The notes under the pieces were generated by a model that ran no database searches, was not told the DNA's origin, and saw only the letters and a list, made by a program, of their open reading frames with translations. DNA of 64,000 nucleotides. Origin: Isoetes taiwanensis (taxonomy: Eukaryota; Streptophyta; Lycopodiopsida; Isoetales; Isoetaceae). Positions 40,201-62,270 of this stretch are shown here, in pieces. Where the stretch lies: the NCBI GenBank assembly GCA_021234155.1, contig JAJEKV010000083.1, positions 3,002,241-3,066,240 on the forward strand, in the 5' to 3' direction. Both the position numbers and the translations under genes were made by a program. Numbering within the stretch: the stretch's first letter is position 1; each line of letters opens with the position of its first letter.

Positions 40201-41022
40201 AGGTGTTCTTCTGGGCCACGTTTAACGAGGGCATTACCACGGATCCTGCCAAGATCAGTTGCGTTCTCAAGGCTCAGGTGCCTATCAACATTAAGGAGAC
40301 ACGCTCCTTTCTTGGGAAAGTCAATTATTATGCTACTTTCATTCTTGAACTAGCTTCCATTGCTGATCCCATCTATAAACTCAGGGATAATGAATCCACT
40401 TGAGCTTAGAATCCCCAAGCAAATGCGGCCTTTCAATACACAGGCCACTGTTCTTGTTCCACCTCAATGGGACAACTATTTCACGTCCATGTAGATGTTT
40501 CAGCTTTTGCTATTGATGTTGTTCTCTCCCAAGAATACGACTCTCAACTCGACAAACCAATTCGATATGCGAGCCGGAAACTCAACCCTGCATAGAAGAA
40601 TTATTCTGCCACAGAATGGGAAGTGCTCGGCCTCATTTTTTGTCTGCAACGGTTTTGCCACTATCTACTGAGTAGCAAAATCAAGTTCTTTGTAGATCAT
40701 CAAGCTCTTCTTTATTCATTCATAAGACAGGAAAGTCTCATGTGGTGCCTGATTATCTTTCGTGCATCCATACTGATGATTCGTCCTCAGGAGTCTCAGA
40801 CACTTTTCCAGATGCTCAAGTCTTTTTGCTCACGGCCATGCCTCACTAGTTCCATGACTACCATCAATATCTTCTCTCGGGTGCCTGACCCTCAGAGGAT
40901 CCCACGCTTTCTCCCCACAAGTTATGCTCCTGCCATCAAGAATTCCTTCAATAAGTCCGTGACTATATTATGGTTGCAGGACATCTCTACAAACGTGGCA
41001 AGGATATTGCGCAGATGTGTAC
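37250..41022 (+). mobile_element. older Ty3/gypsy retrotransposon, left part (gag region, protease, RT, RNase H)
   Basis: Decayed pol reads left to right with stops and shifts. A Pro-rich gag-like region spans 37600-38640, protease carries IDGGSTINLI at about 38680, reverse transcriptase lies at 39629-40168, and RNase H follows with HVHVDVSAFAID and RYASRKLNP at 40470-40720. A spacer leads to HLYKRGKDIAQMC, just before integrase. At 41028 the younger array interrupts it, and the integrase resumes at 60525. Confidence 0.8.
39629..40168 (+). pseudogene. reverse transcriptase domain of the older gypsy element
   Basis: Clear RT motifs in order: IDKFLAAGLIYEVKHSEWVS, VHVNYRKRNMATKHDHFPLP, FMDGFSGYNQI (first catalytic Asp), VVPFGLSNSSSTFHRIM and VFQDDFSAYS (the Asp-Asp pair, normally YxDD). 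The frame is open for 179 codons, then stops and resumes in another frame at FLGKVNYYATFI. It copies element RNA into cDNA in the family. Confidence 0.8.
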
Positions 41023-41027
41023 ATTCT

Positions 41028-43512
41028 TGCTGCCATGCTATGGCAGCATGTAAGAGCCAAGCATATATTAGCACTAATCCTATCAGGTTGGTTCAATTTG
41101 CAAGATATTAGGAGAATGCTTCACTAGCATACACTCAAGTTTGAAGAGCAAAGGAAGGACAATTGACTCAAGTCACTCAAGAGATGCAAAAGGTCAAACA
41201 AGCATAGGAAGTGTAGAGAAGAAGAGAAAGAAGAGCCCTTGAAGAGCATTCCATGGTATGTGATCATTTATGAGCTTGGCATCTTTGGCATTTTTTTTTA
41301 TTTCCATCCTCATCCACTCCACCATCCCAAATAGCATTGAACCTTGACTCCTTCCTCATACACCTCCCAAAGTCAAACTTGACCTTGAAAGTTCTTTCTA
41401 GTCAAAATACACCTTCATAAAACACCCACTTGCTTCATCATCCACTAGTTCAAGAGAGACTTGACTTAGTCATAACTTTGCTTATGAAGTCAACATTCCA
41501 TGCAACTTGAGCAAAATGTAGAGAGGCTTGCAAAATCCCTAAGGAAATGCTAAAAATTCAAATATGCCTCAAAGATGCCTCAAAGATGCTCCACAAAATT
41601 TTTGGCTTCCTAATGAGCACTAGATGTGCCAAGTCCCCCTACACCTTACTACACACATCACACCCATCACCATTTCATCCTTTTCATCTCAAACTCTCAT
41701 TCAAATCAAAATTCATTTCAAAATATCATTGTTGCCACATCACTTTTGACACCTCATCATTCACACACATCATCTCCACATCATTCTAAAAATTTTGACT
41801 AGAGAGAATTTTCAAATTCAAGTGGGGTGACACGTCATCATTCCCATTGGCCATGTCATACTACCTAGCCATGCCATGTTTTTCAAATGCCACTTCATCC
41901 ACTCCCCAAATTTTTCCAAACTCCAAAGAGCTCTATGGTGAAAAAGACCCCGAGAATATTATAGGGCACAAAAAAAGGTTCCCCTAGAAAAAAAAAGAAT
42001 TTTGAGAAAAGGCCTTATTTTAGGCATGGTATATGTGTTCTAGGGAATCGTGCCATAGGGTGTAAGGGGTGCAAAAATTTTCCTATCTACCCCCTTAGCC
42101 TAATTTCTCTTCCAAGCCAATCCCCTGCCAAGGAGCATCCCGTGTGGGGCGGTGGAGGTATCGAATCCCACGTGGACACTGCACGCAATAATCAGAAGAA
42201 ATCAATTTTTTGAGCCTTATATACTTTGTCTGCTAAATTGAATTGGGCCTGTGGAATATTTCTCTTCGAACTGCCAGAAACCTAAACCTGAAAAATGCCA
42301 AGATCCGTTCAAAGCGACCTAACAAACCATTAATTCAGCACCTAAACCGGCCGAATCATTATGTTTAATGCCATGAATGCTTAGTGCGGGCTAAAAGACA
42401 GAAGATTTGAAGGAAATGATGAAGATTTCAACGGAACAGTACATTCTACAAAAGGGGATTTTTCGCACAGAGGATTTTGGAGGGCTTGAAGGCAAAGAAG
42501 ATTTTTTGGCTTTGAAGAAGGACCGGCTTGACAACCTTGAGCTTGATCCTGACCTCCTATGTTTACCTTTGATCCGGATTATTGACTTAATTCTCCGGAT
42601 TTTTTATGTGCACCTATTTGATCCTGTGCCCAAGACCCCGAGCTTGGGATGTTATATTGTATCTTCTGAGTGACTGATTCAATTGAAAATCCGACCTTTG
42701 CAGCAGTTTGTTTGAGTTGCTTTGTGATCTTTTCAAAAAAGCAAAAATTATCATAGCTTTATTGTCATAGCGTGAGTATCTAGTGCCCGTGCACATTGTT
42801 AGTGTGTTTTGTCTACGTATCACAAACCCTTAGAAAGTGCAAAAGCCAAATCCATTGCATTGCAATGGAAAGTTGGCATTGTTAGAACATGAGGTATTGC
42901 ACAACAAGTGTGGAGCATGGGAGAGCCACTTTGTTTGAACTTCAAATCTGTCAAACAAAGTATGTGGAAGTAGACAGCATTAGATACACGTGCAGTTGAC
43001 CCTTACAAAACATTATCTTTCAAGAACATTTTCTTCTTACAGTCTTAGGCTAAGAATTATCAAAAGAAAAAATTGGATCCTTTCTGGTCAAAAAGAATAG
43101 TTGGCCCTTGGTGTGCAGACAAATCTGAGAGAGATAGAGTTGATAGTCCCAAAAAATTCATCACCAATATCGAGTTCCAAATATCAGCTCTCTGTCAGGG
43201 ATATTGACCAAAAATTGACTGGGTCAGTGATTTGAATCTCGCCCATCTAGCCTACTCTGACCTTGCTGAGCTTTTGCAGTCTGTTAGTGACAAGTGTTGA
43301 GAACATCAAGGAGTGATATCCACACCCATAGCCCCATAGATCACATTCTGCAAGAGATTTTGTGAGGCAGACTTTTTTCTCTTCAGGGAAACACAATCCT
43401 AGTAATCTTTTGTGATTCTTTCTGGAATTTTTGCACTCAGAGTGGTTGCCTTAAGCAACCTGGAGGTTCTAAACCACTGAGGTTGAAGGTTTTGCCAGGA
43501 ATACCTTCAACA
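41028..43512 (+). repeat. LTR 1 of the younger gypsy family (2,485 bp)
   Basis: Starts TGCTGCCATG and ends CCTTCAACA (TG...CA). The first 21 bases form a hairpin with arms TGCTGCCAT and ATGGCAGCA. A TATA-type box (cttatatac) near 42218 probably marks the promoter. An 88-codon open frame (42407-42673) starting MKEMMKIS follows it. Left flank is ATTCT. Confidence 0.9.
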
Positions 43513-43515
43513 TTT

Positions 43516-43533
43516 TGGAGGTTCTACCGAGAT
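43516..43533 (+). promoter_or_regulatory. primer-binding site, tRNA-Gln-like
   Basis: TGGAGGTTCTACCGAGAT, three bases after the LTR. Its complement matches the 3' end of plant tRNA-Gln (…TCGGTGGAACCTCCA) with one mismatch. In copy 2 (about 52006) the same site carries a small insertion. Confidence 0.6.
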
Positions 43534-43555
43534 CATCTTCCTGGAATCTGGACTC

Positions 43556-44760
43556 ATGGCACCAAGAAGAGTTAATGAGACATCTGAGCCTACTGAGACA
43601 CAGGATAATCAGGAAGCTACTGCTACACCTACTGTCACCATACAAGCAACTGCAGGCATGCCTTATCAATACTTCGAGTTAAATGTGCCTACTCCAGTCC
43701 CTGTTTTTGATCCGAGCATGAATGCCAACAATTTCCTCAAGACCTTTGAAGAATACTATCAAGAATATGGTCACAAAAAAGGCTGTAAGTTTTCTGAGTT
43801 TAAGAAATGTTTCAAGAATGATGAGGTAAGGGCTTGGTTAGAATATGTTATAGGTTTAGGCACCAATTCTTGGGAAGAACTGGTAAAAAAGTTTCTAGCA
43901 AGGTTTGGAAGAGTCTTGGACCCTCAAGATTTAATATTTGAGTTGCAAACTTTTCGCATCAAACATGGTGAAAGTGTGCAGCAGTATGTCGAAAGATTCA
44001 ATCACTATCTTGTCAAATGCCAAATCAATCATGTTCCTAACCATACATTGCATTTAGTGGCTTTTTTATCGTGGGATTGAGCAGCAGACCAAGAATACGT
44101 AGAAAGCTTTTGAAGATCCAAAAACAGGAGGGATTTGATACAATACACAAGGCTTTCACCAAAGCTACTGAAATTGCTGATATGATATCATACTTACCAG
44201 ATGAAATGCACTCACCAAGTGATCCTTTTTTTCCAGATTATGAGCAGGAGTGTATGGGATCAAAGACTGCACTGCCTATGCTATCCAAAAGGAAAAGAAA
44301 AAGGGTTAAGGTGGAAGAGGATGAGGCTCCTGCAGTAGATGTAAGAGCAGAGATCACCAAGGTATCTGAGGCATTGGTTGAGGTAACTAAACAACTGCAA
44401 GAGTTGAAGAACTCAAAATTTGAAAAGAAAACTTACCCCCCATGTGTGCATTGCTTTAGAGATACTCATTCTTCTGATTATTGCTGGTATAGGCCATGCA
44501 CTAAGTGTGGAAAAAAGAGGTCATTTTGGTAAAGAATGCCCTTTGTGTGAATTTTGTAAGGTCAGGACATTACGAGGATAGATGCGTGTCAAAAGAATAT
44601 TTTGCCGCATAAGAAAAAATCTAAAATTGGTGAACCAAGTGCATCTATAAGGTTTGTGCGTGAAGTTGAAGAGCAAGAGGAGATTATGGTCGCCCACACC
44701 GTAAGGATGAATAATGCCAAAGAGAAAGAACCAAAGAATCAAGAAGTTGAGATTTTGAAA
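43556..44760 (+). pseudogene. gag, copy 1: capsid region and zinc knuckles
   Basis: Starts at ATG 43556 (MAPRRVNETSEP). The capsid part includes NNFLKTFEEYYQEYG, WLEYVIGLGTNSWEELVKKF and FELQTFRIKHGESVQQYV, the usual retrotransposon gag helices. Downstream are CX2CX4HX4C knuckles: CVHCFRDTHSSDYC, then CTKCGK…HFGKEC with a frame slip, and a third, CEFCKVMGHYEDR, clearer in copy 2. Gag packages element RNA into virus-like particles in the cytoplasm. A frame break at about 44075 separates capsid from nucleocapsid. Confidence 0.75.
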
Positions 44761-44946
44761 CATAAAGATGTTTGAAAAAGCAAGCGTTATCGTGGGCTCT
44801 TCCTCCCGCTCAAAAATTTGTCAAGAAGGAAAAAACCGTGAGGATTTTGAATATTTATTGAAGAATTCTAAAATCTGTAGATTTGTCGACCCCGCCAAGA
44901 TAGCCCCTCTTCTACGTAAGAAAGGTGCTCAATCTTACTAAGGAAG

Positions 44947-45910
44947 ATGAGTTTGCCCCCGACAAATCACATTGATGAGCACATGCTCACCCAGGAAGAT
45001 AATGATCCTGGAGCTTTCACCTGTGTTGCTAAAATGGAAGGGAAAATATTAACCAAAGTTCTGCTAGATGGAGGATCACCCTTGAACGTGATGCCACACC
45101 ATGTCATGAGACTGTGTGGTCTAGAAATAGACAAGAAGGCTCCAATGATCTTGAAATCTTTCTCTAATTCTAAAATCAATCCAGTGGGAATAGTTAGCAA
45201 TGTGCCTATTGATGTTGAAGGAATAATGGTTGCAAACTAACTTTGTGGTGGTTGCTTTTGAAGGAATAGGGGACAAATCAGATATTTATGACTTACTTTT
45301 GGGCAGAAGGTGGCTTTCTACAGTAGATGCTAGGCCTGTGTGGTCAAAAGGAGAATGTACCATCTCAAATGGCAAGAAAAAGGTAACATTGTATAATAAG
45401 TTAGGAGAGTTTGAAAGCATGAATTTCATTGAAGAAGAAATGTTGATATCACATCCATGTGGAGAATTTGAACTGGATACAGTAGAGTTGGAGTCTAGCA
45501 TAAAAATCTCAAAGGAGTTGGCTTCAACCAGGTTGAGCAATTTTGCTTATTTATGGTTTGATGGTGGTGTTTCCAAAAGGCTTAATGTGGCATCTTCTCG
45601 CCGCTATTCTCAAGGATGCCTCAAACAAAGTTCTTCAAGCAAAGTAGGAAGAATTTATCCTAATGTCACTTCTAATATGGCGTAATATAAGGCATTGATT
45701 GCAGGGTCTTCAAGAGGCAAAAAAATCTAAACATCGGAATGTGATCATCTTTGGAGACTCTCACTTCGTCTCTGGGGCAAATATCGTGGAGAATATCGTG
45801 CCAAGAATGAGGACATGTTGCAGCTCAAAAGTCAAGCCATCTTTGAACTGAAGGATTTTGATACACGAACTCGCCATGTTCCAAGGGAGCGAAATGATGA
45901 AGCGCACTCG
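44947..45910 (+). pseudogene. protease plus second RNase H domain, copy 1
   Basis: Protease signature VLLDGGSPLNVMPHHV (catalytic Asp) and DLLLGRRWL, followed directly by an RNase H fold: AYLWFDGGVSKRLNVA (first Asp), FGDSHFV (Asp) and RHVPRERNDEAHSL (terminal motif). One base after the VAN at 45238 and several later bases break the frame. The same segment is intact in copy 2. Confidence 0.75.
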
Positions 45911-46007
45911 TTGTGTATGTGCTACCGGAACATTTGGTGAGGGAGCAATTCAAGAGGAGGAACTTGAGAGAAGAGATCTCAATAGCTATACCCCATCCCG
46001 GTAATCA

Positions 46008-47410
46008 ATGCAAGTGAAGACAAGGGTAAGGGAAGTCAAGGTCAATAAGAAGGGTCTAGATAGGGTGTTATATGTTGGAGATTTGTTCGAGAAGAGGATA
46101 ATGCTTTGGTTACCAAATTGTTTGATGATTGGAAGGATGTCTTTGCTTGGGATTATGATGAGCTGGTGGGAATTGACAAAAAGCATTTGTGAATTTGAAA
46201 TTAAAATAAAGGGAGGTATGAAACCCGTCATACAAAAGCTAAGAAGAATCAATGCTTCTCTATTAGGTCTAATCAAGGAAGAATTATACAAAATGAAAGA
46301 TGCAGTGTGTGATTACTCAAAATTGTGAACCCCCGAAAGTGGCTATCTTGCATTGTTCCCGTTGAAAAGAAAAACAAGGCCATTAGGATCTGCATAGACT
46401 ATAGAGATTTAAACAAAGCTACCACCAAAGATTGTTACCCTTTGCCATTTCGAAGAGGTGTTGCATGCTGAAAGGTGCAAAGAAATTTACTCATTCTTAT
46501 ATGGCTTTTTCGTGTTTTAATCGGATAAGCATCAAGGAAGGTGATCAGCCAAAAACTTCATTTATCACACCTTGGGGAACATTTGCCATGAAAAGAATGC
46601 CATTTGGATTGATGAATGCTTCGCAACATTCCAAAGAGCCATGGATGCAATTTTTAAAGAAATGCCATTAACATTTTTCGTGTATTTTTGGATGATCTTT
46701 GTTTGGGAACTTCTCCGAAAGACATTTTGATATGCTAACCATGTTGTTTGACTTGTGTAGAAAGGGGGGAGTGAGTTTGAACCCCAAAAAGTGTGTTTTT
46801 TTATCATCAAAAGGGGAATTGCTTGGGCATGTAGTATCTACAGCAGGAATTCAAATATCTGACAGTAAGATTGAAGCCCTAAGAAAATTGACACCTCCAA
46901 AAACCCTCAAACAGGTTAAGAGCTTCATAGGGATGACCAGCTTCTTGAGAATGTATGTCCCTCATTTTTCCCACACCATAAGCCCAATCTCCAGCCTCAC
47001 AAAGGTTGGGAAGTTCTCCAAAAGTGAAAGCAAACACATCCTAGTAGATTGGGATGAGCAATGCCAAAATTCTTTTGACAAAATCATTGATGCCATTTGC
47101 AAATCTATCCTGCTAAAGCCTCCTGATCTAGAGAAGCCCTTCAAAGCTTACATCAGTGTGACAAAGAAAGCAATTGGTGTGGCACTGTTACAAGGGGATC
47201 ATGTGATTACTTTTGCAAGCAAGATGTGGTCCGATCTCGAGATTAGATATCCCAGGTTGGAGAAGAGTGCAGGCAGCCCCGATGTTTTTGATAGAAAGGC
47301 AAGGACATCTTCTCGCAAACAATCAGGTGCAAGTGCTCATGAGGCAAAATCCTTTTCACCCTATTTGCAAAAAGCGCGCCAAAGGCCAAATTGTGCGGTG
47401 GTGGGCTTGT
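46008..47410 (+). pseudogene. reverse transcriptase and degenerate RNase H, copy 1
   Basis: RT motifs: KPVIQKLRRINASLLGLIKE, IRICIDYRDLNKAT, KTSFITPWGTFAMKRMPFGL and the catalytic VFLDDLCLG at about 46690, followed by the connection LLGHVVSTAGIQIS and FIGMTSFLRMYVPHF. The RNase H that follows (YISVTKKAIGVALLQ, FASKMW, EIRYPRLEKS) lacks the usual catalytic Asp in its first strand, as in plant Tat/Athila-type elements. Frames are broken. Confidence 0.75.
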
Positions 47411-47589
47411 AAGATCCAAGCTTATGATATTACTCAGAAGGTGGTAAAGTTGATCGAGAATCCCAGCTCCTACCTTCCACTTGTGTTGTTTGAGCATGAA
47501 GATCAAGATGGTTTGTGTGTTGATGACAATCTAACAAACTTGATCTCCGTTGATGCGAGAAAACATTGATTGGCAATTTGACATCAAAC

Positions 47590-48840
47590 TATTTGGAAAG
47601 CAATGAGTTACCTAAGAACTTGAGTGGCAAATAAGAAAGGAGATTTAGGGACAAATGCAAGAAGTTCAGTCTAATTGAAGGGATCCTATGCAAAGTTGAC
47701 AAGGAAGGAGTCTTATTGAGATGTGTGGATAAGGAAGAGGCTAGAATGATAATTGAGGCGTGTCATGAGGGAGTTTGTGGAGGACACTTTGCGGCGTAAC
47801 AACAAAGAAAAAAAGATTTTAAGGTCGAGGATACTTTTGGCCTACTCTCTTTAAGGATTGTTATGAAGCTATAAAATGCTGCCACAAATGCCGATTTTTG
47901 GCAAAAGAACCTTGCAACCAAATATACCTGACCGCCATAATTTCCCTGGACCTTTTCAAATGTGGGACTGGATTTTATAGGCCCCATAGACCCACCTTCC
48001 TCAGCAAAGACCCGCTTTATATTAGTTGCCACTGATTACTTTTACCAAATGGGCAGAGGCAATTCCTTTGAGAGAAGCCAATGCCCAAGCTACTTCGCAA
48101 GTTTCTACATGAAAATATCTCGTGCGGTTTTGTATCCCTTTCAAAATTGTTTTACGATAGAGGCAGCCAATTCATCAACCATACAATTGCATTACTTCTA
48201 GCCACCTTGAAAGTCAAACACACCAAGAGTTCATCCTATTACCCTCGGAAATGGCCAGCAGAGTCAACCAATAAGACTCTCAAGTCAATCTGAAGAAGAC
48301 CATCGGTGTTTCAAGAAAGGATTGGCATTTGAAACTTCATGATGCACTTTGGGCATACGGAACTACCATCAAAGTGGCTACAAAGCACACCCCTTTCAGT
48401 TTGGTGTATGGGATAGAATCAAGATTGCCTATAGAATTAGAGCTTCCATCACTCGACCGCCTATCGATAAATTTGGAAATGGATAATGCTCTAAAAGATG
48501 ATTTGTGAGATTGATGCGGCTTGAGGAGCATAGATATGAGGCTGAGAATGCAATAATAAGGAAAAAGGCCAAGGATATTGCAGCCTTCAAAGCAGCACAT
48601 AAATTACAGGGAGTCTTGAAAGAAGGAGAGTTAGTGTTAAAATGGAACAAAGCAAGGGAAGATATGGCAACAAAATTCGAAAATCTTTGGGAGGGACCAT
48701 TTGAAGTAATAGGGACAGCTGGCAAGGATTCATATTGGCTGAAGGATATTGCTGATGGCAGAGAATTGATGAACCCTATCAACATTGTGCACCTAAAAAG
48801 GTATTGGCAACAACATGTTGCCCTTGCTCTGTTCAACTGA
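47590..48840 (+). pseudogene. integrase, copy 1
   Basis: Zinc-binding HHCC part: IIEACHEGVCGGHF and CCHKCRF. Core: GLDFIGPIDPPSSAK (first Asp), FYDRGSQFINHT (second Asp area, reading DRGSQF) and ESTNKTLKSI (Glu). The C-terminal GPY/F box WEGPFEVIG and KRYWQQHVALALFN precede the TGA at 48838. It would insert the cDNA into the genome. Confidence 0.75.
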
Positions 48841-49503
48841 AATCTCTGTTGTAAGATGTAGCTAGGTATAGTTAATACATATGGTTAAAACTAGATCAGT
48901 TAGGCCTGTCTTAGTAAATGTAGTTCTGCTTTAGGGTTATTATTTGTGTGTTAATGAATTTATAAGTGTTGCTATGCAGATTGTGATCAACTGAAGGAGT
49001 GAATTGATACTAATGATCATAGTTCCATGCAGGTGCATCTGAGCATGTCTGTCACACATCTCTTCCATTGCAGTACATTGATCTCCATCATCCGGAGTTG
49101 TCGACATTGCCTCCACACCAAAGAACTCACTCATACTAACAAGCTTTATCTTCACATGCAGGTGCATTCCTATGTCTATCTCCATCTGTCATCTGATCAA
49201 GAGTTGACCTCATTGCATCAGAAAGTCCTCCTGCATTGCCAATAAATTTCCCAAGCTGCAGTCACACCACCATCCTGCAGCTTCTCATAACTAAAGAGAT
49301 TTATTTTCCATGCAGGTTCATCTGAAAGTAGCATCATATGCACGTTCATAATATCAAATCTATCACCTTCCAATCCATATGCAGGTCATTGAGTTGCCAA
49401 CCATATTCTCATATTGGCAACTGGCTGGAGAACATGTCAAGAGTCATCAAGCAGCTAGTCAAAAGGGGCTGGAAGATCAGCCTTCTCTTTTTGTTTGGCA
49501 TAA
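48841..49503 (+). other. 3' non-coding tail of internal region, copy 1
   Basis: Lies between the integrase stop and LTR 2. Four atgcaggt-containing strings recur at about 49026, 49154, 49312 and 49378, each followed by cat- or tcatc-like text. No open frame of note. Confidence 0.6.
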
Positions 49504-52002
49504 TGCTGCCATGCTATGGCAGCATGTAAGAGCCAAGCATATATTAGCACTAATCCTATCAGGTTGGTTCAATTTGCAAGATATTAGGAGAATGCTTCAC
49601 TAGCATACACTCAAGTTTGAAGAGCAAAGGAAGGACAATTGACTCAAGTCACTCAAGAGATGCAAAAGGTCAAACAAGCATAGGAAGTGTAGAGAAGAAG
49701 AGAAAGAAGAGCCCTTGAAGAGCATTCCATGGTATGTGATCATTTATGAGCTTGGCATCTTTGGCATTTTTTTTTATTTCCATCCTCATCCACTCCACCA
49801 TCCCAAATAGCATTGAACCTTGACTCCTTCCTCATACACCTCCCAAAGTCAAACTTGACCTTGAAAGTTCTTTCTAGTCAAAATACACCTTCATAAAACA
49901 CCCACTTGCTTCATCATCCACTAGTTCAAGAGAGACTTGACTTAGTCATAACTTTGCTTATGAAGTCAACATTCCATGCAACTTGAGCAAAATGTAGAGA
50001 GGCTTGCAAAATCCCTAAGGGAAATGCTAAAAATTCAAATATGCCTCAAAGATGCCTCAAAGATGCTCCACAAAATTTTTGGCTTCCTAATGAGCACTAG
50101 ATGTGCCAAGTCCCCCTACACCTTACTACACACATCACACCCATCACCATTTCATCCTTTTCATCTCAAACTCTCATTCAAATCAAAATTCATTTCAAAA
50201 TATCATTGTTGCCACATCACTTTTGACACCTCATCATTCACACACATCATCTCCACATCATTCTAAAATTTTTGACTAGAGAGAATTTTCAAATTCAAGT
50301 TGGGACACCGTCATCATTCCCATTGGCCATGTCATACTACCTAGCCATGCCATGTTTTTCAAATGCCACTTCATCCACTCCCCAAATTTTTCCAAACTCC
50401 AAAGAGCTCTATGGTGAAAAAAAAGACCCCGAGAATATTATAGGGCACAAAAAAGATTCCCCTAGAAAAAAGAATTTTGAGAAAAGGCCTTATTTTAGGC
50501 ATGGTATATGTGTTCTAGGGAATCGTGCCATAGGGTGTAAGGGGTGCAAAAATTTTCCTATCTACCCCCCCCTTAGCCTAATTTCTCTTCCAAGCCAATC
50601 CCCCCCTGCCGCGTGGAGCATCCGGGCGTGTGGGGCGATGGAGGTACCGAATCCCACGGACACTTGCATTTAATAATCAAAGAAATCAATTTTTTTGAGC
50701 CTTATATACTTTGTCTCTTCTAAATTGAATTGGGCACATGGGATATTTCTCTTGAACCGCGAAACCTAAACACGGAAAATGCCAAGATCCGTTCAAAGCG
50801 ACCTAACAAACCATTAATTCAGCACCCTAAACCGGCCGAATCATTATGTTTAATGCCATGAATGCTTAGTGCGGGCTAAAAAGACGAAGATTTGAAAGAA
50901 ATGATGAAGATTTCAACGGACGAGTACATTCTACAAAAGGGATTTTTTCGCACAGAGGATTTGGGAGGGCTTGAAGGCAAAGAAGATTTTTTGGCTTTGA
51001 AGAAGGACCGGCTTGACAACCTTGAGCTTGATCCTGACCTCCTATGTTTACCTTTGATCCGGATTATTGACTTAATTCTCCGGATTTTTTATGTGCACCT
51101 ATTTGATCCTGTGCCCAAGACCCCGAGCTTGGGATGTTATATTGTATCTTAAAAATGGCCGATTCAATTGAAAATCCGACCTTTGCGCGGCCGGTTTGTT
51201 TGAGTTGCTTTGTGATCTTTTCAAAAAAGCAAAAATTATCATAGCTTTATTGTCATAGCGTGAGTATCTAGTGCCCGTGCACATTGTTAGCTGTGTTTTG
51301 TCTACCTGTATCACAAACCCTTAGAAAGTGCAAAAGCCAAATCCCTGCATTGCAATGGAAAGTTGGCATTGTTAGAACATGAGGTATTGCACAACAAGTG
51401 TGGAGCATGGGAGAGCCACTGTTTGAACTTCAAATCCTGTCAAACAAAGTATGTGGAAGTAGACAGCATTAGATACACGTGCAGTTGACCCTTACAAAAC
51501 ATTATCTTTCAAGAACATTTTCTTCTTACAGTCTTAGGCTAAGAATTATCAAAAGAAAAAATTGGATCCTTTCTGGTCAAAAAGAATAGTTGGCCCTTGG
51601 TGTGCAGACAAATCTGAGAGAGATAGAGTTGATAGTCCCAAAAAATTCATCACCAATATCGAGTTCCAAATATCAGCTCTCTGTCAGGGATATTGACCAA
51701 AAATTGACTGGGTCAGTGATTTGAATCTCGCCCATCTAGCCTACTCTGACCTTGCTAAGCTTTTGCAGTCTGTTAGTGACAAGTGTTGAGAACATCAAGG
51801 AGTGATATCCACACCCATAGCCCCATAGATCACATTCTGCAAGAGATTTTGTGAGGCAGACTTTTTTCTCTTCAGGGAAACACACTCCTAGTGATCTTTT
51901 GTGATTCTTTTAAGAATTTTTGCACTTTCGAGTGGTTGCCTTAAGCAACCTGGAGGTTCTAAACCACCGAGGTTGAAGGTTTTGCCGGGAATACCTTCAA
52001 CA
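49504..52002 (+). repeat. LTR 2 (shared middle LTR, 2,499 bp)
   Basis: Same ends as LTR 1 (TGCTGCC…TTCAACA). It serves as 3' LTR of copy 1 and 5' LTR of copy 2. It differs from LTRs 1 and 3 mostly at CTG/CAG: tctgctaaa becomes tctcttctaaa, and cagcagtt becomes cgcggccggtt. Confidence 0.9.
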
Positions 52003-52050
52003 TTTTGGAGGAGGAGTTCTACCGAGATCATCTTCACGGAATCTGGACTC

Positions 52051-53300
52051 ATGGCACCAAGAAGAGTTAATGAGACATCGAGCCCTCTTGAGACCACGGG
52101 ATAATCCAGGGAAGCTCTTGCTACACCCTCTTGTCACCATACAAGCAAGCTGCAGGCATGCCTTATCAATACTTCGAGTTAAATGTGCCTACTCAGGTCC
52201 ACTGTTTTTGATCCGAGCATGAATGCCAACAATTTCCTCAAGACCTTTGAAGAATACTATCAAGAATATGGTCACAAAAAAAGGTTTGTAAGTTTTACGA
52301 GTTTAAGAAATGTTTCAAGAATGATGAGGTAAGGGCTTGGTTAGAATATGTTATAGGTTTAGGCACCAATTCTTGGGAAGAACTGGTAAAAAGTTTCTAG
52401 CAAGGTTTGGAAGAGTCTTGGACCCTCAAGATTTAATATTTGAGTTGCAAACTTTTAGCATCAAACATGGTGAAAGTGTGCAGCGGTATGTCGAAAAGAT
52501 TCAATCACTATCTTGTCAAATGCCAAATCAATCATGTTCCTAACCATACATTGCATCTAGTGGCTTCTTTTATCGAGGGGATTGAGCAGCGGACCAAGAA
52601 TACACAAAAGCTTTTGAAGATTCAAAAGCAGGGAGGGATTTGATACAATACACAAGGCTTTCACCAAAGCTACTGAAATTGCTGATATGATATCATACTT
52701 ACCCGGATGAAATGCACTCACCAAGTGATCCTTTTTTCCAGTTATGGCGCGGGGGTGTATGGGATCAAAGACACATACTGTCTATGCTATCCAAAAGGAA
52801 AAGAAAAAGGTTAAGGTGGAAGATGATGAGGCTCCTGCGGCAGATGTAAGAGCGAGAGATCACCAAGGTATCCCGAGGCATTGGTTGAGGTAACTAAACA
52901 AGCTGCAAGAGTTGAAGAACTCAAAATTTGAAAAGAAAAACTTACCCCATGTGTGTGCCTTTGCTTTAGAGATACTCATTCTTCTGATTATTGCTGGTAT
53001 AGGCCATGCACTAAGTGTGGAAAAAAGAGGTCATTTTGGTAAAGAATGCCCTTTATGTGAATTTTGTAAGGTCATGGGACATTACGAGGATAGATCTGCG
53101 GTGTCAAAGAATATTTTGCCGGACACAAGAAAAATCTAAAATTGGTGAACCAAGTGCATCTATAAGGTTTGTGCGAGGAAGTTGAAGAGCAAGAGGAGAT
53201 TATGGCTGTCCACACCGAGGAAGGATGAATAATGCCAAAGAGAAAGAACCACAAGCTGAAGAAGTTGAGATTTTGAAACATAAAGATCTTTGAGCAAGCG
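52051..53300 (+). pseudogene. gag, copy 2
   Basis: Same ATG context as copy 1. The capsid helices are fragmented by many 1-2-base changes at CTG and CAG (for example at 52078-52160). The nucleocapsid retains KRGHFGKECPLCEFCKVMGHYE, showing the second and third zinc knuckles. Confidence 0.7.
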
Positions 53301-53438
53301 GTTAATGCCTCCTCCTCCTGCTCAAAAATTTGTCAAGAAGGAAAAAAAGCGTGAGGATTTTGAATATTTATTGAAGAATTCTAAAATGCGTGTGGATTTG
53401 CGACCACGCTCAAGATAGCCCCTTCTTACAGAAGAAAG

Positions 53439-54362
53439 GTGCTCAATCTTACTAAGGAAGATGAGTTTGCCCTGACAAATCACATTGATGAGCACATGCT
53501 CACCCAGGAAGATAATGATCCTGGAGCTTTCACCTGTGTTGCTAAAATGGAAGGGAAAATATTAACCAAAGTTCTGCTAGATGGAGGATCACCCTTGAAC
53601 GTGATGCCACACCATGTCATGAGACTGTGTGGTCTAGAAATAGACAAGAAGGCTCCAATGATCTTGAAATCTTTCTCTAATTCTAAAATCAATCCAGTGG
53701 GAATAGTTAGCAATGTGCCTATTGATGTTGAAGGAATAATGGTTGCAGCTAACTTTGTGGTGGTTGCTTTTGAAGGAATAGGGGACAAATCAGATATTTA
53801 TGACTTACTTTTGGGCAGAAGGTGGCTTTCTACAGTAGATGCTAGGCCTGTGTGGTCAAAAGGAGAATGTACCATCTCAAATGGCAAGAAAAAGGTAACA
53901 TTGTATAATAAGTTAGGAGAGTTTGAAAGCATGAATTTCATTGAAGAAGAAATGTTGATATCACATCCATGTGGAGAATTTGAACTGGATACAGTAGAGT
54001 TGGAGTCTAGCATAAAAATCTCAAAGGAGTTGGCTTCAACCAGGTTGAGCAATTTTGCTTATTTATGGTTTGATGGTGGTGTTTCCAAAAGGCTTAATGT
54101 GGCATCTTCTGCTGCTATTCTCAAGGATGCCTCAAACAGGTTGCTGGCTAAAGTAGGAAGAATTTATCCTAATGTCACTTCTAATATGGCAGAATATAAG
54201 GCATTGATTGCAGGTCTTCAAGAGGCAAAAAATCTAAACATCAGGAATGTGATCATCTTTGGAGACTCTCAGCTCGTCTGTGAGGCAAATATCGAGGAGA
54301 ATATCGAGGGCAAGAATGAGGACATGTTGCAGCTCAAAAGTCAAGCCATCTTTGGGCCCTGA
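53439..54362 (+). CDS. protease and archaeal-type-like RNase H, open frame, copy 2
   Basis: A 307-codon open frame. Residues 1-25 form a short lead. The aspartic protease lies at about 45-140 (VLLDGGSPLNVM, flap-like PVGIVSNVPIDVEG, DLLLGRRWL). An RNase H domain occupies about 205-300, with YLWFDGGVSKRL (Asp), TSNMAEYKALIAGLQEA (Glu) and VIIFGDSQLVCEAN (Asp). The three catalytic acids are all present, unlike in the RNase H after RT. The frame breaks at 54360, just before the last conserved motif. Confidence 0.8.
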   Translation: MLNLTKEDEFALTNHIDEHMLTQEDNDPGAFTCVAKMEGKILTKVLLDGGSPLNVMPHHVMRLCGLEIDKKAPMILKSFSNSKINPVGIVSNVPIDVEGIMVAANFVVVAFEGIGDKSDIYDLLLGRRWLSTVDARPVWSKGECTISNGKKKVTLYNKLGEFESMNFIEEEMLISHPCGEFELDTVELESSIKISKELASTRLSNFAYLWFDGGVSKRLNVASSAAILKDASNRLLAKVGRIYPNVTSNMAEYKALIAGLQEAKNLNIRNVIIFGDSQLVCEANIEENIEGKNEDMLQLKSQAIFGP

Positions 54363-54539
54363 AGGATTTTGATACACAGGAACTCGCCATGTTCAAAGGG
54401 AGCCCGAGAATGGTGAAAGCCGGACTTCGTTGTCAGAAGTGTGCTCTTGGAACATTTGGTGAGGGAGCAATTCAAGAGGAGGAACTTGAGAGAAGAGATG
54501 CACAATAGCTATACCCCATCCTGGTAATCAATGCAAGTG

Positions 54540-55960
54540 AAGACAAGCAGGTAAGGGAAGTCAAGGTCAATAAGAAGGGTCTAGATAGGGTGTTATATGT
54601 TGGAGATTTGTTCAGAGAAGAGGATAATGCTTTGGTTACCAAATTTTTTGATGATTGGAAGGATGTCTTTGCTTGGGATTATGATGAGCTGGTGGGAATT
54701 GACAAAAGCATTTGTGAATTTGAAATTAAAATAAAGGGAGGTATGAAACCTGTCATACAAAAGCTAAGAAGAATCAATGCTTCTCTATTAGGTCTAATCA
54801 AGGAAGAATTATACAAAATGAAAGATCACGAGGTGTGATTCTTGAAATTGTGAACCACGAGTGGCTATCTTGCATTGTTCTGTTGAAAAGAAAAACAAGG
54901 CCATTAGGATCTGCATAGACTATAGAGATTTAAACAAAGCTACTTGTCAAAGATTGTTACCCTTTGCCATTTTGGAAGAGGTGTTGCATCTTTGTAGCGA
55001 GGCAAAGAAATTTACTCATTCTTAGATGGCTTTTTCGGGTTTTAATCGGATAAGCATCAAGGAAGGTGATCAGCCAAAAACTTCATTTATCACACCTTGG
55101 GGAACATTTGCCATGAAAAGAATGCCATTTGGATTGATGAATGCTTACGCAACATTCAAAGAGCCATGGATGCAATTTTAAAGAAATGCCCGACTAACAT
55201 TTTTTCGTGTATTTTTGGATGATCTTTGTTTGGGAACTTCTCTGGAAAGACATTTTGATATGCTAACCATGTTGTTTGACTTGTGTAGAAAGGGGGAGTG
55301 AGTTTGAACCCCAAAAAAGTGTGTTTTTTTTATCATCAAAAGGGGAATTGCTTGGGCATGTAGTATCTGGCGAGAATTCAAATATCGTGATGGGATTGAA
55401 GCCCTAAGAAAATTGACACCTCCAAAACCCTCAAACAGGTTAAGAGCTTCATAGGGATGACCAGCTTCTTGAGAATGTATGTCCCTCATTTTTCCCACAC
55501 CATAAGCCCAATCTCCAGCCTCACAAAGGTTGGGAAGTTCTCAAAAGTGAAAGCAAACACATCCTAGTAGATTGGGATGAGCAATGCCAAAATTCTTTTG
55601 ACAAAATCATTGATGCCATTTGCAAATCTATCCTGCTAAAACCTCACGATCTAGAAGCCCTTCAAAGCTTACATCAGTGTGACAAAGAAAGCAATTGGTG
55701 TGGCACTGTTACAAGGGGATCATGTGATTACTTTTGCAAGCAAGATGTGGTTACGATCTTTGAGATTAGATATCCCGGGTTGGAGAAGAGTCGCGGCAGC
55801 CACGATGTTTTTGATAGAAAGGCAAGGACATCTTCACGCAAAACAATCAGGTGCAAGTGCTCATGAGGCAAAATCCTTTTCACTCCTATTTGCAAAAAAA
55901 AGCAGCCAAAGGCCAAATTGTGCGGTGGGCTTGTAAGATCAAGCTTATGATATTCTTTGT
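54540..55960 (+). pseudogene. reverse transcriptase and degenerate RNase H, copy 2
   Basis: Contains GDLFREEDNALVTKFF, DWKDVFAWDYDELVGIDK, IRICIDYRDLNKAT, TPWGTFAMKRMPFGLMNA and the catalytic VFLDDLCLG near 55210, then FIGMTSFLRMYVPHFSHTI. RNase H again shows SVTKKAIGVALLQGDH in place of an Asp-containing first strand. Several frame breaks. Confidence 0.75.
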
Positions 55961-56099
55961 AAAAAGGTGGTAAAGTTGATCGAGAATCCCAGCTCCTACC
56001 TTCCACTTGTGTTGTTTGAGCATGAAGATCAAGATGGTTTGTGTGTTGATGACAATCTAACAAACTTGATCTCTGTTGATCTGAAAAAACATTGATTGG

Positions 56100-57376
56100 C
56101 AATTTGACATCAGAAACTATTTGGAAAGCAATGAGTTACCTAAGAACTTGAGTGGCGGTCAAGAAAGGAGATTTAGGGACAAATGCAAGAAGTTCAGTCT
56201 AATTGAAGGGATCCTATGCAAAGTTGACAAGGAAGGAGTCTTCTTGAGATGTGTGGATAAGGAAGAGGCTAGAATGATAATTGAGGCGTGTCATGAGGGA
56301 GTTTGTGGAGGACACTTTGCAGCGCCAACCTAACACAAAAAGATTTTAAGGTCGGGATACTTTTGGCCTACTCTCTTTAAGGATTGTTATGAAGCTATAA
56401 AATGCTGCCACAAATGCAGTTTTTGGCAAAAGAACCTTGCAACAACCAGCTGCCACGACGCCATAATTTCCCTGGACCTTTTCAAATGTGGGGACTTGGA
56501 TTTTATAGGCCCCATAGACCCACCTTCCTCATTCGGCACCGGTTTATATTAGTTGCCACTGATTACTTTACCAAATGGGCGAGAGCAATTCCTTTGAGAG
56601 AAAGCCAATGCCCAAGCTACTTTTGCAAAGGTTTCTACATGAAAATATCATTGCGGTTGGTATCCCTTTCAAAATTGTTTTACGATAGAGGCAGCCAATT
56701 CATCAACCATACAATTGCATTACTTCTAGCCACCTTGAAAGTCAAACACACCAAGAGTTCATCCTATTACCCTCGGGGAAATGGCGGGCGAGAGTCAACC
56801 AATAAGACTCTCAAGTCAATCACGAAGAAGACCATCGGTGTTTCAAAGAAAGGATTGGCATTTGAAACTTCATGATGCACTTTGGGCATACAGAACTACC
56901 ATCAAAGTGGCTACAAAGCACACCCCTTTCAGTTTGGTGTATGGGATAGAATCTATATTGCCTATAAATTAGAGCTTCCATCACTCGGGGCCCTGCCTAT
57001 CGGATAAATTTGGAAATGGATAATGCTCTAAAAACAGTTGTGAGATTGATGCGGCTTGAGGAGCATAGATATGAAAATGCAATGCAATAATAAGGAAAAA
57101 GGCCAAGGATATTGCAGCCTTCAAAGCGACACATAAATTACGAGGGGAGTCTTGAAAGAAGGAGAGTTAGTGTTAAAATGGAACAAAGCAAGGGAAGATA
57201 TGGCAACAAAATTCGAAAATCTTTGGGAGGGACCATTTGAAGTAATAGGGGACGGTGGCAAGGATTCATATTGGCTGAAGGATATTGGCGATGGCGAGAG
57301 AATTGATGAACCCTATCAACATTGTGCACCTAAAAGGTATTGGCAACAACATGTTGCCCTTGCTCTATTCAACTGA
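56100..57376 (+). pseudogene. integrase, copy 2
   Basis: Starts after NELPKNLSGG; zinc-binding segment ACHEGVCGGHFAA and CCHKC; core with ATDYFTKWARAIPLRESQ, FYDRGSQFINHTIALL and SSYYPRGNG…ESTNKTL; C-terminal WEGPFEVIG (GPY/F) and the TGA at 57374. Frame breaks at CAG/CTG sites. Confidence 0.75.
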
Positions 57377-58035
57377 AATCTCTGTGGTAAAGATGTAGCT
57401 AGGTATAGTTAATACATATGGTTAAAACTAGATCAGTTAGGCTGTCTTAGTAAATGTAGTTACGCTTTAGGGTTATTATTTGTGTGTTAATGAATTTATA
57501 AGTGTTGCTATCGTTGTGATCAAGCTGAAGGAGTGAATTGATACTAATGATCATAGTTCCATGCGAGGTGCATCGAGCATGTGCATCACACATCTCTTCC
57601 ATTGCACTACATTGATCTCCATCATCACGGAGTTCTTGACATTGCCTCCACACCAGCAACTCACTCATACTAACAAGCTTTATCTTCACATGCGGGTGCA
57701 TTCCCATGTTTATCTCCATCGTCATCGATCAAGAGTTGACCTCATTGCATCGAAACTCCTCCTACATTGCCAATAAATTTCCCAAGGCTGTTTGTCATAC
57801 CACCATCCTGCAGACTTCTCATAACTAAAAGAGATTTATTTTCCATGCGGGTTCATCTGAAAGTAGCATCATATGCCGCGTTCATAATATCAAATCTATC
57901 ACCTTCCAATCCATATGCGGGTCATTGAGTTGCCAACCATATTCTCATATTGGCAAGCTGGAGAACATGTCAAGAGTCATCAAGCAGCTAGTCAAAGGGG
58001 CTGGAAGACCAGCCTTCTCTTTTTGTTTGGCATAA

Positions 58036-60519
58036 TCTTTTGCCATGCTATGGCGGCATGTAAGAACCAAGCATATATTAGCACTAATCCTATCAGTTTG
58101 GTTCAATTTGCAAGATATTAGGAGAATGCTTCACTAGCATACACTCAAGTTTGAAGAGCAAAGGAAGGACAATTGACTCAAGTCACTCAAAGAGATGCAA
58201 AAGGTCAAACAAGCATAGGAAGTGTAGAAAGAAGAGAAGAAGACCCTTGAAGAGCATTCCATGGTATGTGATCATTTATGAGCTTGGCATCTTTGGCATT
58301 TTTTTTTATTTCCATCCTCATCCACTCCACCATCCCAAATAGCATTGAACCTTGACTCCTTCCTCATACACCTCCCAAAGTCAAACTTGACCTTGAAAGT
58401 TCTTTCTAGTCAAAATACACCTTCATAAAACACCCACTTGCTTCATCATCCACTAGTTCAAGAGACTTGACTTAGTCATAACTTTGCTTATGAAGTCAAC
58501 ATTCCATGCAACTTGAGCAAAATGTAGAGGGCTTGCAAAATCCCTAAAGGAAATGCTAAAAATTCAAATATGCCTCAAAGATGCCTCAAAGATGCTCCAC
58601 AAAATTTTTGGCTTCCTAATGAGCACTAGATGTGCCAAGTCCCCCTACACCTTACTACACACATCACCCATCACCATTTCATCCTTTTCATCTCAAACTC
58701 TCATTCAAATCTAAATTCATTTCAAAATATCATTGTTGCCACATCACTTTTGACACCTCATCATTCACACACATCATCTCCACATCATTCTAAAAATTTT
58801 GACTAGAGAATTTTCAAATTCAAGTGGGCTGACCGTCATCATTCCCATTGGCCATGTCATACTACCTAGCCATGCCATGTTTTTCAAATGCCACTTCATC
58901 CACTCCCCAAATTTTTTTCCAAACTCCAAAGAGCTCTATGGTGAAAAAAGACCCCAGAATATTATAGGGCACAAAAAAAGATTCCCCTAGAAAAAAAGAA
59001 TTTTGAGAAAAGGCCTTATTTTAGGCATGGTATATGTGTTCTAGGGAATCGTGCCATAGGGTGTAAGGGGTGCAAAAATTTTCCTATCTACCCCTTAGCC
59101 TAATTTCTCTTCCAAGCCAATCCCCCCACACTTGGAGCATCAGTGTGGGGAGTGATGGAGAATACCGAATCCCACGTGGACACTGCACGCAATAATCAGA
59201 AGAAATCAATTTTTTGAGCCTTATATACTTTGTCTGCTAAATTGAATTGGGCCTGTGGGATATTTCTCTTCGAACTGCCAGAAACCTAAACCTGGAAAAT
59301 GCCAAGATCCGTTCAAAGCGACCTAACAAACCATTAATTCAGCACCTAAACCTGCCGAATCATTATGTTTAATGCCATGAATGCTTAGTGCGGGCTAAAA
59401 GACAGAAGATTTGAAGGAAATGATGAAGATTTCAACGGAACAGTACATTCTACAAAAGGGGATTTTTCGCACAGAGGATTTGGGAGGGCTTGAAGGCAAA
59501 GAAGATTTTTTGGCTTTGAAGAAGGACCAGCTTGACAACCTTGAGCTTGATCCTGACCTCCTATGTTTACCTTTGATCCGGATTATTGACTTAATTCTCC
59601 GGATTTTTTATGTGCACCTATTTGATCCTGTGCCCAAGACCCCGAGCTTGGGATGTTATATTGTATCTTCTGAGTGACTGATTCAATTGAAAATCCGACC
59701 TTTGCAGCAGTTTGTTTGAGTTGCTTTGTGATCTTTTCAAAAAAGCAAAAATTATCATAGCTTTATTGTCATAGCGTGAGTATCTAGTGCCCGTGCACAT
59801 TGTTAGCTGTGTTTTGTCTACCTGTATCACAAACCCTTAGAAAGTGCAAAAGCCAAATCCCTGCATTGCAATGGAAAGTTGGCATTGTTAGAACATGAGG
59901 TATTGCACAACAAGTGTGGAGCATGGGAGAGCCACTGTTTGAACTTCAAATCCTGTCAAACAAAGTATGTGGAAGTAAACGGACGTTAGATACCGCGTCT
60001 TGGTTGACCCTTACAAAACATTATCTTTCAAGAACATTTTCTTCTTACAGTCTTAGGCTAAGAATTATCAAAAGAAAAAATTGGATCCTTTCTGGTCAAA
60101 AAGAATAGTTGGCCCTTGGTGTGCAGACAAATCTGAGAGAGATAGAGTTGATAGTCCCAAAAAATTCATCACCAATATCGAGTTCCAAATATCAGCTCTC
60201 TGTCAGGGATATTGACCAAAAATTGACTGGGTCAGTGATTTGAATCTCGCCCATCTAGCCTACTCTGACCTTGCTAAGCTTTTGCAGTCTGTTAGTGACA
60301 AGTGTTGAGAACATCAAGGAGTGATATCCACACCCATAGCCCCATAGATCACATTCTGCAAGAGATTTTGTGAGGCAGACTTTTTTCTCTTCAGGAAACA
60401 CAATCCTAGTAATCTTTTGTGATTCTTTCTGGAATTTTTGCACTCAGAGTGGTTGCCTTAAGCAACCTGGAGGTTCTAAACCACTGAGGTTGAAGGTTTT
60501 GCCAGGAATACCTTCAACA
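58036..60519 (+). repeat. LTR 3 (2,484 bp)
   Basis: Begins at the same point as the other LTRs, though TGCTGCC reads TCTTTTGCC here. Ends CCTTCAACA followed by the ATTCT target duplication. It carries the same 88-codon frame (59411-59677). Confidence 0.9.
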
Positions 60520-61060
60520 ATTCTCATGAGGTCCCGGAGATTGTTCTCCAAGCACATGAAGGATTTGATGGAGGGCATTTTAGTGGCGATAACACGACAT
60601 GGAAAATCCTTTTGGCTGGCTATTTTTGGCCCACGCTGTTCAAAGACGCCACGCTCATGCGCACCAATGTGATATCTGCCGGTGGCGAGAGAAGGCCCGC
60701 GGCTGGTGGCGCTCTACCTTTTAACTCCAGGTTGCCACACCTCTACCCTCCAAAGAAATGGGAGATGGATTTTGTTGGGCCCATTGATCCATCTCGCTTG
60801 TAACTCCGTGCTTCGATATATTCTTGTTCTCACAATTTATGCCACTAAGTGGGCTAAAACTTGTCGTTACATTACGATAACACCAAGAAGCAACATGGCA
60901 CGAGTGCTCTACACACAAGTCATTACATGCTTAGACTGCCCCACGGAACTAGTGAGTGACAGGAGTGTTCATTTTTTCAATCACACAATTAAGGAACTCA
61001 TGGACTATTTGCACATCCATCATTGGAAGAGCACTCCATATTATCTACAAAGGAAATTTT
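60520..61060 (+). mobile_element. older Ty3/gypsy element, right part (integrase)
   Basis: Resumes the element cut at 41028. Reads EVPEIVLQAHEGFDGGHFSG (zinc-binding His residues), GYFWPTLFKDA, KKWEMDFVGPID (core Asp), WAKTCRYITITPRS, ELVSDRSVHFFNHTIKELM (second Asp) and HHWKSTPYYLQ, then breaks off before the catalytic Glu. The 3' LTR is not seen. Confidence 0.75.
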
Positions 61061-61525
61061 TTAATATAATAATCAACACACAACTACAATTAACATTATT
61101 AACATAAACCATTGCATTTAACACATTTAAATTAAAATCCCCCCTTAAACCCCTTTTGGTTTGGGTGCATATTCCATCGGGGTTACTCCGGGCAATGAGA
61201 GCTGTCGGATTGGCATATTTGCCCTTTATTCCAAGATCTGGACCATAGATAGCGATCCTCGTTTGTGGGGTATGCATGTACAAGTTTTTGTATACTGTAT
61301 ATTAAGGTTTTCAAAATACTATAAGGTTTGAGAGAATGTACTTAATGGTGTTAATTTTGTACATGTATTGTAAATATATTTTGGGGCTCTCGCCTCCCTC
61401 ACGTAACCCGTGTGAATATGCACCCAAGCCAAAGGGGTTTTAAGGGGATTTTAATTTAAATGTGTTAAATGCAATGGTTTATGTTAATAATGTTAATTGT
61501 AGTTGTGTGTTGATTGTTATATTAA
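61061..61525. mobile_element. 465-bp MITE with inverted repeats over 100 bp
   Basis: Ends ttaatataataatcaacaca at the left and complementary text ending gttgattgttatattaa at the right. The inverted match extends through aaccattgcatttaacac and the G/C runs near 61140 and 61440. It truncates the older integrase. An A/T-rich target makes the flanking duplication ambiguous. The minus-strand frame within it is not a gene. Confidence 0.75.
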
Positions 61526-62270
61526 AAAAAAAAATTTGGGCCCTCCGGGCCCTAACTAAAGCAAACATAGGTAAACTTTATGGGTCTAAACATTAATTTC
61601 TAAAAAGCACAATAACATCAAGACAAACAAATTATTTCCATTGCATACCAAGAGCTGCCCAAATATACGCAAACACACTGTTATAAAATGGGCAAGTAGA
61701 ATCAAAGGCAACTTCATAATAACTACCAGCGGATACAATAGTGTCATCAGTGGAGCAAGAAGCTGTAAGAGTTTTGGATTGCATGGTAATCATTAGTTAA
61801 AAAGGGAGAAGATATACAGTAGAGTCCAAGTATTTAAATCCCTCATTGGGTGTTACCACATGAAAATCCACAACTTCAGAGCATTGATGCATTCCTGCAT
61901 TGCATTACATACATTGGAGAAGGCACGAAATAGATGCACTGACCTTTTGACCTTTTGACCTTTTGTAAATTAAAGAAAATTGCATTGTTGTTTTGTAAAG
62001 AATTGCTGCTTGCTCCTATAATGTGAGCTGTGATATAGGCTGAAACCTGATTGCCATCATTATTACCATCATTATTTAAGGCATTGCTCTTCTATGGGAT
62101 GGTGATGGTTAAGCTTTATCAAGCTACCAGTATCTAGAGGAACAAGTTGATGGAACATGTTGGCTTAGTGGTGATTACATTCGATTACATTAAGATTGCA
62201 TCTGTTGTAGTTAGAGTTCACTAATGTTCAATATTTTGCAGCGGATGTTGTTTTCAAAAAGAGATCCCAC
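61526..62270. other. no recognised gene
   Basis: Starts with an A run and a palindromic gggccctccgggccc (61539-61553). A 9-base unit, gaccttttg, is repeated three times at about 61942-61966. No coding signal. Confidence 0.5.

Follow-up and report, generated by a model that had tools for sequence, protein, structure and literature searches.

CAG and CTG differences between copies of a young Ty3/gypsy element of Isoetes taiwanensis are probably for the most part nanopore consensus errors

In a stretch of 64,000 nucleotides from the Isoetes taiwanensis assembly GCA_021234155.1 (contig JAJEKV010000083.1, positions 3,002,241 to 3,066,240; hereafter the window), positions 41028-60519 are occupied by one Ty3/gypsy retrotransposon with three long terminal repeats (LTRs) and two internal regions (INTs) in the order LTR1-INT1-LTR2-INT2-LTR3. 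We consider it very probable that the differences between its copies at CAG and CTG triplets are mostly errors of the assembled consensus, made where nanopore sequencing misread 5-methylcytosine (5mC) at CHG sites (H being A, C or T) and kept where short reads could not be placed. An earlier note, made from the sequence alone, had proposed long-read consensus error at CHG sites as its core reading. This is supported by the failure of LTR mates to share the variants, by their dependence on neighbouring sequence, by the products of alteration and by an older element as control; histone H3 genes also back it, with a caveat about how they were selected.

To judge from its size, contig counts and element lineage, the assembly analysed appears to be that of the Oxford Nanopore Technologies (ONT) R9.4.1 project described in PMC8566536. 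The portion of that paper available to us gives version 1 as 1658.30 Mb in 204 scaffolds and 909 contigs, made from ONT R9.4.1 data with Guppy 3.1 flip-flop, miniasm, racon and then pilon with 2x150 Illumina reads. In the mechanism we propose, native DNA would have been read on these pores with a general basecalling model, and the signal of CAG and CTG bearing 5mC (plant CHG methylation, dense in young transposons) would be misread, often to be written as a CG-containing string or at the wrong length. Racon would leave such systematic error in place because it uses the same reads. Pilon with 150-base reads would mend only regions where these can be placed, namely old repeats that have diverged, unique sequence, and a margin of one read length at the ends of young elements. 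Within a young, nearly identical family placement would be arbitrary, so that every copy would be left with a different patchwork of correct and erroneous sites. 5mC is here the presumed physical cause and short-read placement the presumed reason for the patchwork; basecalling models that met 5mC mostly in CG may for that reason write CG elsewhere.

Copy differences concentrate at CAG and CTG triplets

Self-BLAST and alignment confirmed the three LTRs and two internal regions, and the differences quoted in the earlier note (43578-43660 against 52070-52160, among others) are present in the sequence. Aligning the copies and tabulating their differences by trinucleotide, a check proposed in that note, brought out an enrichment at CAG/CTG. 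With the deviating copy identified by majority among the three LTRs, 26 of 89 CAG/CTG triplets were altered against 241 of 6775 others (Fisher p = 1.5e-16, the triplets not being independent). Triplets containing CG came next (17/116). In unpolarised counts they stood above CAG/CTG, which had suggested CpG decay; this idea was dropped once polarisation ranked CAG/CTG first. Differences at CG sites appear to be partly products of altered CAG/CTG.

The same enrichment was seen when neighbouring differences were grouped into clusters. Of 63 LTR clusters, 9 in which all three LTRs differ were set aside; among the 54 polarised ones, CAG/CTG occurs in the majority form of 22 (random placement gave a mean of 4.05 and a maximum of 12 in 5000) and in the minority form of 5. 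Between INT1 and INT2 there are 193 clusters, with CAG/CTG in exactly one copy in 80, in both in 9 and in neither in 104. CAG/CTG was found in 59 clusters on the INT1 side (16.6 expected, maximum 33) and in 39 on the INT2 side (14.8 expected, maximum 30), its sidedness being blockwise (27 runs vs 49.6 expected), and 25 of the 193 clusters are homopolymer-length changes. In the comparison of 12 mate-LTR pairs, 1640 columns differ; 1012 of them are no more than 3 columns away from CAG/CTG (329.5 expected), and another 156 are homopolymer lengths elsewhere.

The earlier statement that the copies differ almost only at CTG and CAG therefore stands as strong enrichment but not as exclusivity, given the 104 INT clusters without either triplet. 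The companion statement, that long stretches lacking CTG and CAG are identical, did not hold: identical INT stretches of 273 and 362 columns, the longest two, contain 6 and 7 CAG/CTG. The 7 identical stretches of at least 100 columns hold 19 CAG/CTG in 1192 columns (1.6 per 100, vs 2.1 per 100 in INT1), and of the 166 CAG/CTG sites in the INTs 62 show no change.

CAG/CTG variants hardly track element ancestry

The LTR family was sampled from the whole assembly (1,658,258,908 bases in 1110 contigs). The search scored 40 of 2501 candidates and listed 48 matches, LTR1 and LTR3 of the window not among them, so that the list is incomplete. Every other LTR listed that is complete or almost so was used (29 copies) and shorter matches excluded, giving 32 copies with the three window LTRs. 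Raw identities within the family are 86-97%. When an element inserts, its LTRs are identical, so older variants should be common to mates. Ten neighbouring pairs were available, 6 from ordinary elements and 4 from two three-LTR tandems. Of 319 cases of an ordinary minor allele, 236 were common to mates (other pairs, 1274/20770); of 127 losses of CAG/CTG, 37 were (other pairs, 1345/6272).

The four-gamete test, applied to 196 single-nucleotide polymorphism (SNP) columns and to the 23 variable CHG sites among 24 with ungapped spans in LTR1, gave a similar picture. Conflicts were found in 233 of 253 CHG pairs and in 2361 of 19110 SNP pairs; at a minor count of 5-8 the figures were 13/15 against 199/406, and at 9-16 they were 119/120 against 9/45. 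Variants at CAG/CTG hardly track element ancestry, whereas ordinary SNPs do.

Altered sites show mostly multi-base or length changes and few of the C-to-T type

With LTR1 as ruler, and 33 CAG/CTG sites each found in no fewer than half of the 31 remaining copies, 343 of 1023 CAG/CTG cells were altered against 5339 of 71041 for other triplets; the rulers LTR3, L005, L008 and L014 agree (CAG/CTG altered 0.31-0.33). Multi-base or length changes make up 208 of the 343 altered cells and one-step changes of the C-to-T type, as deamination gives, only 43, bearing out the point made in the earlier note that these are not simple C-to-T changes. CG was gained within three bases in 216 of the 343 and, in the one-sided INT clusters, gained in 56 of 80 and lost in none. 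C-to-T change is nevertheless raised at CWG (W being A or T) in the young LTRs, at 79/1094 vs 415/23305 at CHH, the cells not being independent.

Loss of CAG/CTG depends on neighbouring sequence

The same LTR edge was then compared between copies in which it adjoins flank outside the element and copies in which it adjoins the repeated internal region. Sites were CAG/CTG present in at least 14 of the 32 copies, BLAST of the flanks decided the side in 14 copies and strand and spacing in the others, flanks were treated as outside the element with their uniqueness assumed, and p values come from shuffling labels among copies. At the left edge (3 sites within 60 bp), CAG/CTG was lost in 0/48 beside flank and 20/48 beside internal region (p = 0.0001). 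The 7 right-edge sites within 145 bp gave 15/119 and 43/105 (p = 0.009), and the 6 sites at 165-294 bp gave 45/102 and 43/90 (p = 0.42). Leaving out the three window LTRs, the p values were 0.00025, 0.0105 and 0.28, respectively. Sites in the LTR middle showed no overall difference between sides. The reach at the right edge, about 150 bp, matches the length of one Illumina read of the published project.

Methylation can also fall at element borders. The edge effect may therefore reflect methylation fading towards the borders rather than short-read polishing, a rather unlikely alternative that is compatible with consensus error as the main explanation; non-CHG indels near the edges are too few to discriminate between the two. 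Polishing is favoured by the change between the seven right-edge sites within 145 bp, which differ, and the six at 165-294 bp, which do not, together with the 150-base Illumina reads reported in the available portion of PMC8566536.

An older element and histone genes as controls

The young element is inserted in an older Ty3 element, for which 12 other copies (82-97% identical to the query) were taken from at least 39 other matches listed. Here the rate of alteration at CAG/CTG was 1.8-1.9 times that of other triplets, and the spectrum was different: taking the window copy as ruler, 63 CAG/CTG cells were altered, 58 by a single substitution and 34 by a change of the C-to-T type. The single pair at 97% shows 8 difference clusters, some of them complex. 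C-to-T change per cytosine was 0.221 at CG, 0.159 at CCG, 0.122 at CWG and 0.079 at CHH (cells not independent), which is the trace expected of CG and CHG methylation and makes CHG methylation plausible in this plant. As a second control we used 15 ordinary H3 genes, the best of 150 scored matches, all 378 bp long and with 265 CAG/CTG triplets. Altered cells amounted to 592/2310 for CAG/CTG and 12070/48538 for others (ratio 1.03), and all 592 are single substitutions. Rewrites of the kind seen in the young LTRs are largely missing from both controls. Six other repeat pairs in the window, mostly more diverged, showed no enrichment either (CAG/CTG 9/45 vs others 441/1857).

These controls bear on the possibility that the basecaller errs at CAG/CTG strings independently of methylation. 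CAG/CTG specificity alone does not prove methylation, and none of our tests measures it. We nonetheless regard this explanation as improbable: the 15 H3 genes carry no excess, although they were selected as intact and are possibly polished, and the C-to-T excess at CHG in the old element makes methylation there plausible. The methylated cytosine of a bacterial Dcm site lies within the same C-A/T-G string. Errors at Dcm sites likewise argue against a cause independent of methylation, as they all but disappear under a model trained on methylated DNA (PMC6591954).

The accessible part of PMC6591954 reports that default ONT models fail at the Dcm sites CCAGG and CCTGG, to which some 70% of the consensus errors in a single K. 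pneumoniae genome were traced, and that a model trained on methylated DNA removes nearly all of them. The likeness to our case is that 5mC unfamiliar to the default model leads to systematic consensus errors of which signal-level polishing removes only part. In contrast, those errors are bacterial, tied to a 5-base motif and made with Guppy 2.2.3 and older tools, whereas ours concern a plant and CAG/CTG in general, and seem to be kept mainly where short reads lack unique placement. For plants, PMC9749173 reports, in the sections available, that general models read native DNA less accurately, and its authors suspect methylation. Less accurate reading of native plant DNA by general models is common to both cases; the main text, as far as available, is without CHG or CTG, and our case supplies a motif, what it turns into, and tests made within an assembly. 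Among the open-licence papers listed in our searches, no title or abstract start described CHG errors in the Isoetes taiwanensis assembly.

Points against consensus error and the remaining alternatives

Several observations weigh against consensus error at methylated CHG sites. Methylation data for the plant were neither found nor used. Of the 1640 differing columns in mate pairs, 472 are neither near CAG/CTG nor homopolymer lengths. CCG and CGG, which are also CHG, are less affected in the 32 LTRs (69/403 = 0.17), and gain of CG is unspecific, being seen in 252 of 592 altered CAG/CTG cells in H3 genes and, in the old element, in 19 of 63. Taken by itself, the edge effect may also reflect lower methylation at the borders, non-CHG errors near the edges are too few to separate this from polishing, and single middle sites vary in both directions. 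The H3 copies are the best-scoring 15, their equal length is partly due to selection, and copies with broken frames would be missed. Finally, extending the finding to a second retrotransposon family, which carries a histone open reading frame (ORF), failed or gave weak signals: ratios were 0.61-1.39 with 8 copies as rulers (one aligning at only 61%) and 0.93-1.65 in 3 pairs. Raw identities in that family, 83-96% (one copy 61%), are not much below the 86-97% of the LTR family. With little or no enrichment in this second family, the effect is not uniform.

Real mutation in an old, decayed tandem of elements would account for the raw identity of only 94.4%, for frames broken in both copies and for the homopolymer and simple changes that also occur. 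We find it very hard to credit, since CAG/CTG variants hardly follow ancestry while ordinary SNPs do, mates differ by only 0.4-2.2% substitutions outside masked sites, CAG/CTG loss depends on neighbouring sequence, and the older element has a different, C-to-T-rich spectrum. Methylation-dependent hypermutation or error-prone repair rewriting CHG sites after insertion would act specifically at CHG sites and leave changes that mates mostly do not share, but it merits next to no credence: it would have to hit about one third of the sites while other sites changed by about 1%, C-to-T products are few, and the older element, which should be at least as advanced, has almost only single substitutions.

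Element age and consequences for similar assemblies

The element is recent, as the earlier note had supposed. After masking the neighbourhoods of CAG/CTG (5 columns) and of gaps (4 columns), LTR1 and LTR3 differ at 16 of 1708 columns (0.94%), against 3.67% raw. In the 12 mate pairs, divergence fell from 3.27-7.88% raw, gaps counted, to 0.40-2.19% masked, that is 3.6- to 11-fold, and for 484 other LTR pairs the median fell from 8.11% to 2.79%. Apparent LTR divergence is inflated to this extent, and the age it implies is probably for the most part an artefact. Counting coding and noncoding positions alike, 109 of the 193 INT differences alter the length by a number not divisible by three; CAG/CTG is present in 44 of the 109, and 24 are homopolymer lengths. 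Transposon bursts are usually dated by LTR divergence, and with raw values of 3.3-7.9% in place of 0.4-2.2%, ages, "broken" frames and repeat libraries taken from such assemblies would mislead.

The suggestion that the errors mark CHG methylation holds only loosely, because a site without alteration may be either unmethylated or simply polished. Whether R9-era nanopore plant assemblies in general hold a readable record of CHG methylation in young multi-copy transposons, with CAG/CTG turned into different strings that often contain CG unless unique sequence lies within the length of an Illumina read, seems to us a little short of an even chance. If they do, raw signal would not be needed to mine this record, and insertion ages based on LTRs of such assemblies would be inflated several-fold. 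Mate sharing, edge distance and product spectrum are checks that need the assembly alone and are applicable to other nanopore plant genomes.

Structure of the element and further observations

The element begins at 41028 and not at 43000, where it had been placed. Self-BLAST gave an 11-kb direct repeat (41028-52005 vs 49504-60522, 94.4% identity) and a further pair (41031-43515 vs 58041-60522). All LTRs end in CA, and LTR1 and LTR2 start with TG; the first bases of LTR3 are an altered CTG site, so its start is accurate to about 3 bases. A single 5-bp target-site duplication, read directly, stands on both sides of the whole tandem (Table 1).

Table 1. Features of the young element and its surroundings (window positions), and histone-ORF loci (locus positions)
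Feature	Position	Strand	Basis
Older Ty3 element hosting the insertion; control family	39593..41027	+	Pfam
Target-site duplication ATTCT, left	41023..41027	.	Direct reading
LTR1 (5' LTR), TG...CA; left edge adjoins flank outside element	41028..43512	+	Self-BLAST, alignment, junction reading
INT1, gag-pol frame broken at many places	43513..49503	+	Alignment, Pfam
Retrotrans_gag (INT1)	in frame 43487-44080	+	Pfam
RT_RNaseH_2 (INT1)	in frame 46696-47412	+	Pfam
LTR2 (middle LTR)	49504..52002	+	Self-BLAST, alignment, junction reading
INT2, 193 difference clusters vs INT1	52003..58037	+	Alignment
RVT_3 (extra RNase H type) domain, frame 53385-54362, residues 229-306	54069..54302	+	Pfam E 2.7e-12
Reverse transcriptase pieces, two frames 54846-55025 and 55026-55181	54846..55181	+	Pfam RVT_1 E 0.0037 and 0.0035, both below gathering score
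Integrase core (rve) piece	56393..56875	+	Pfam E 3.1e-5, below gathering score
LTR3 (3' LTR)	58038..60519	+	Alignment, junction reading
Target-site duplication ATTCT, right	60520..60524	.	Direct reading
Histone ORF, L078	4441-5895	-	
Histone ORF, L079	479-1936	+	
Histone ORF, L080	5906-7363	-	

Pfam domains of the young element were searched on separate stop-free pieces; its protease was recognised by eye only, without a Pfam match. RVT_3 lies upstream of the RVT_1 pieces, which are weak matches. According to the available portion of PMC6317226, the TatI lineage of Ty3/gypsy, known from club-mosses, carries a second type of RNase H (RVT_3) that precedes the reverse transcriptase. The domain order of the young element, compared without phylogeny, would fit TatI of club-mosses; it differs in being a three-LTR tandem. 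The older host element has a reverse transcriptase at 39593-40168 (RVT_1, E 3.5e-15) and an RNase H frame that starts at 40596 and runs into LTR1 (RT_RNaseH, E 2.2e-8).

The three-LTR arrangement is not unique, as three LTRs of the family with a spacing of about 8.5 kb are found at G000:C923 1109580-1129080 (L026, L031, L032). In the window tandem, LTR2 and LTR1 have in common one rare base near the left end of LTR2, beside a CAG, and LTR2 and LTR3 have in common a base at alignment column 1553 that is absent from the 29 other copies. This pattern, of two sites only, is opposite to the hybrid predicted by simple unequal crossing-over; gene conversion or the assembly path is a possible source.

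The retrotransposon family with the histone ORF has a histone H3-like domain at the end of an extra ORF of 484-485 aa. The analysis covered three loci together with their flanks, and ORF pieces from 6 others. Downstream of the histone ORF, L078 has ORFs for Ty3_capsid/Retrotrans_gag and an RVP_2 protease (Pfam), and L079 and L080 have reverse-transcriptase or protease frames recognised by eye. The 15 ordinary H3 genes head the 150 scored Histone matches; the 135 that follow presumably belong to this family, which would then have a high copy number. No paper about it was found by title or abstract start in our literature search.

Minus-strand frames at 6153-7148 and 13895-14512 were considered as a flagellar gene and set aside, as neither Pfam (E 0.01) nor PDB (0.001) gave a match. 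Beyond the young element, the window holds an inverted repeat at 61057-61529, with 99-nt arms that are 93% complementary and 275 nt between them.

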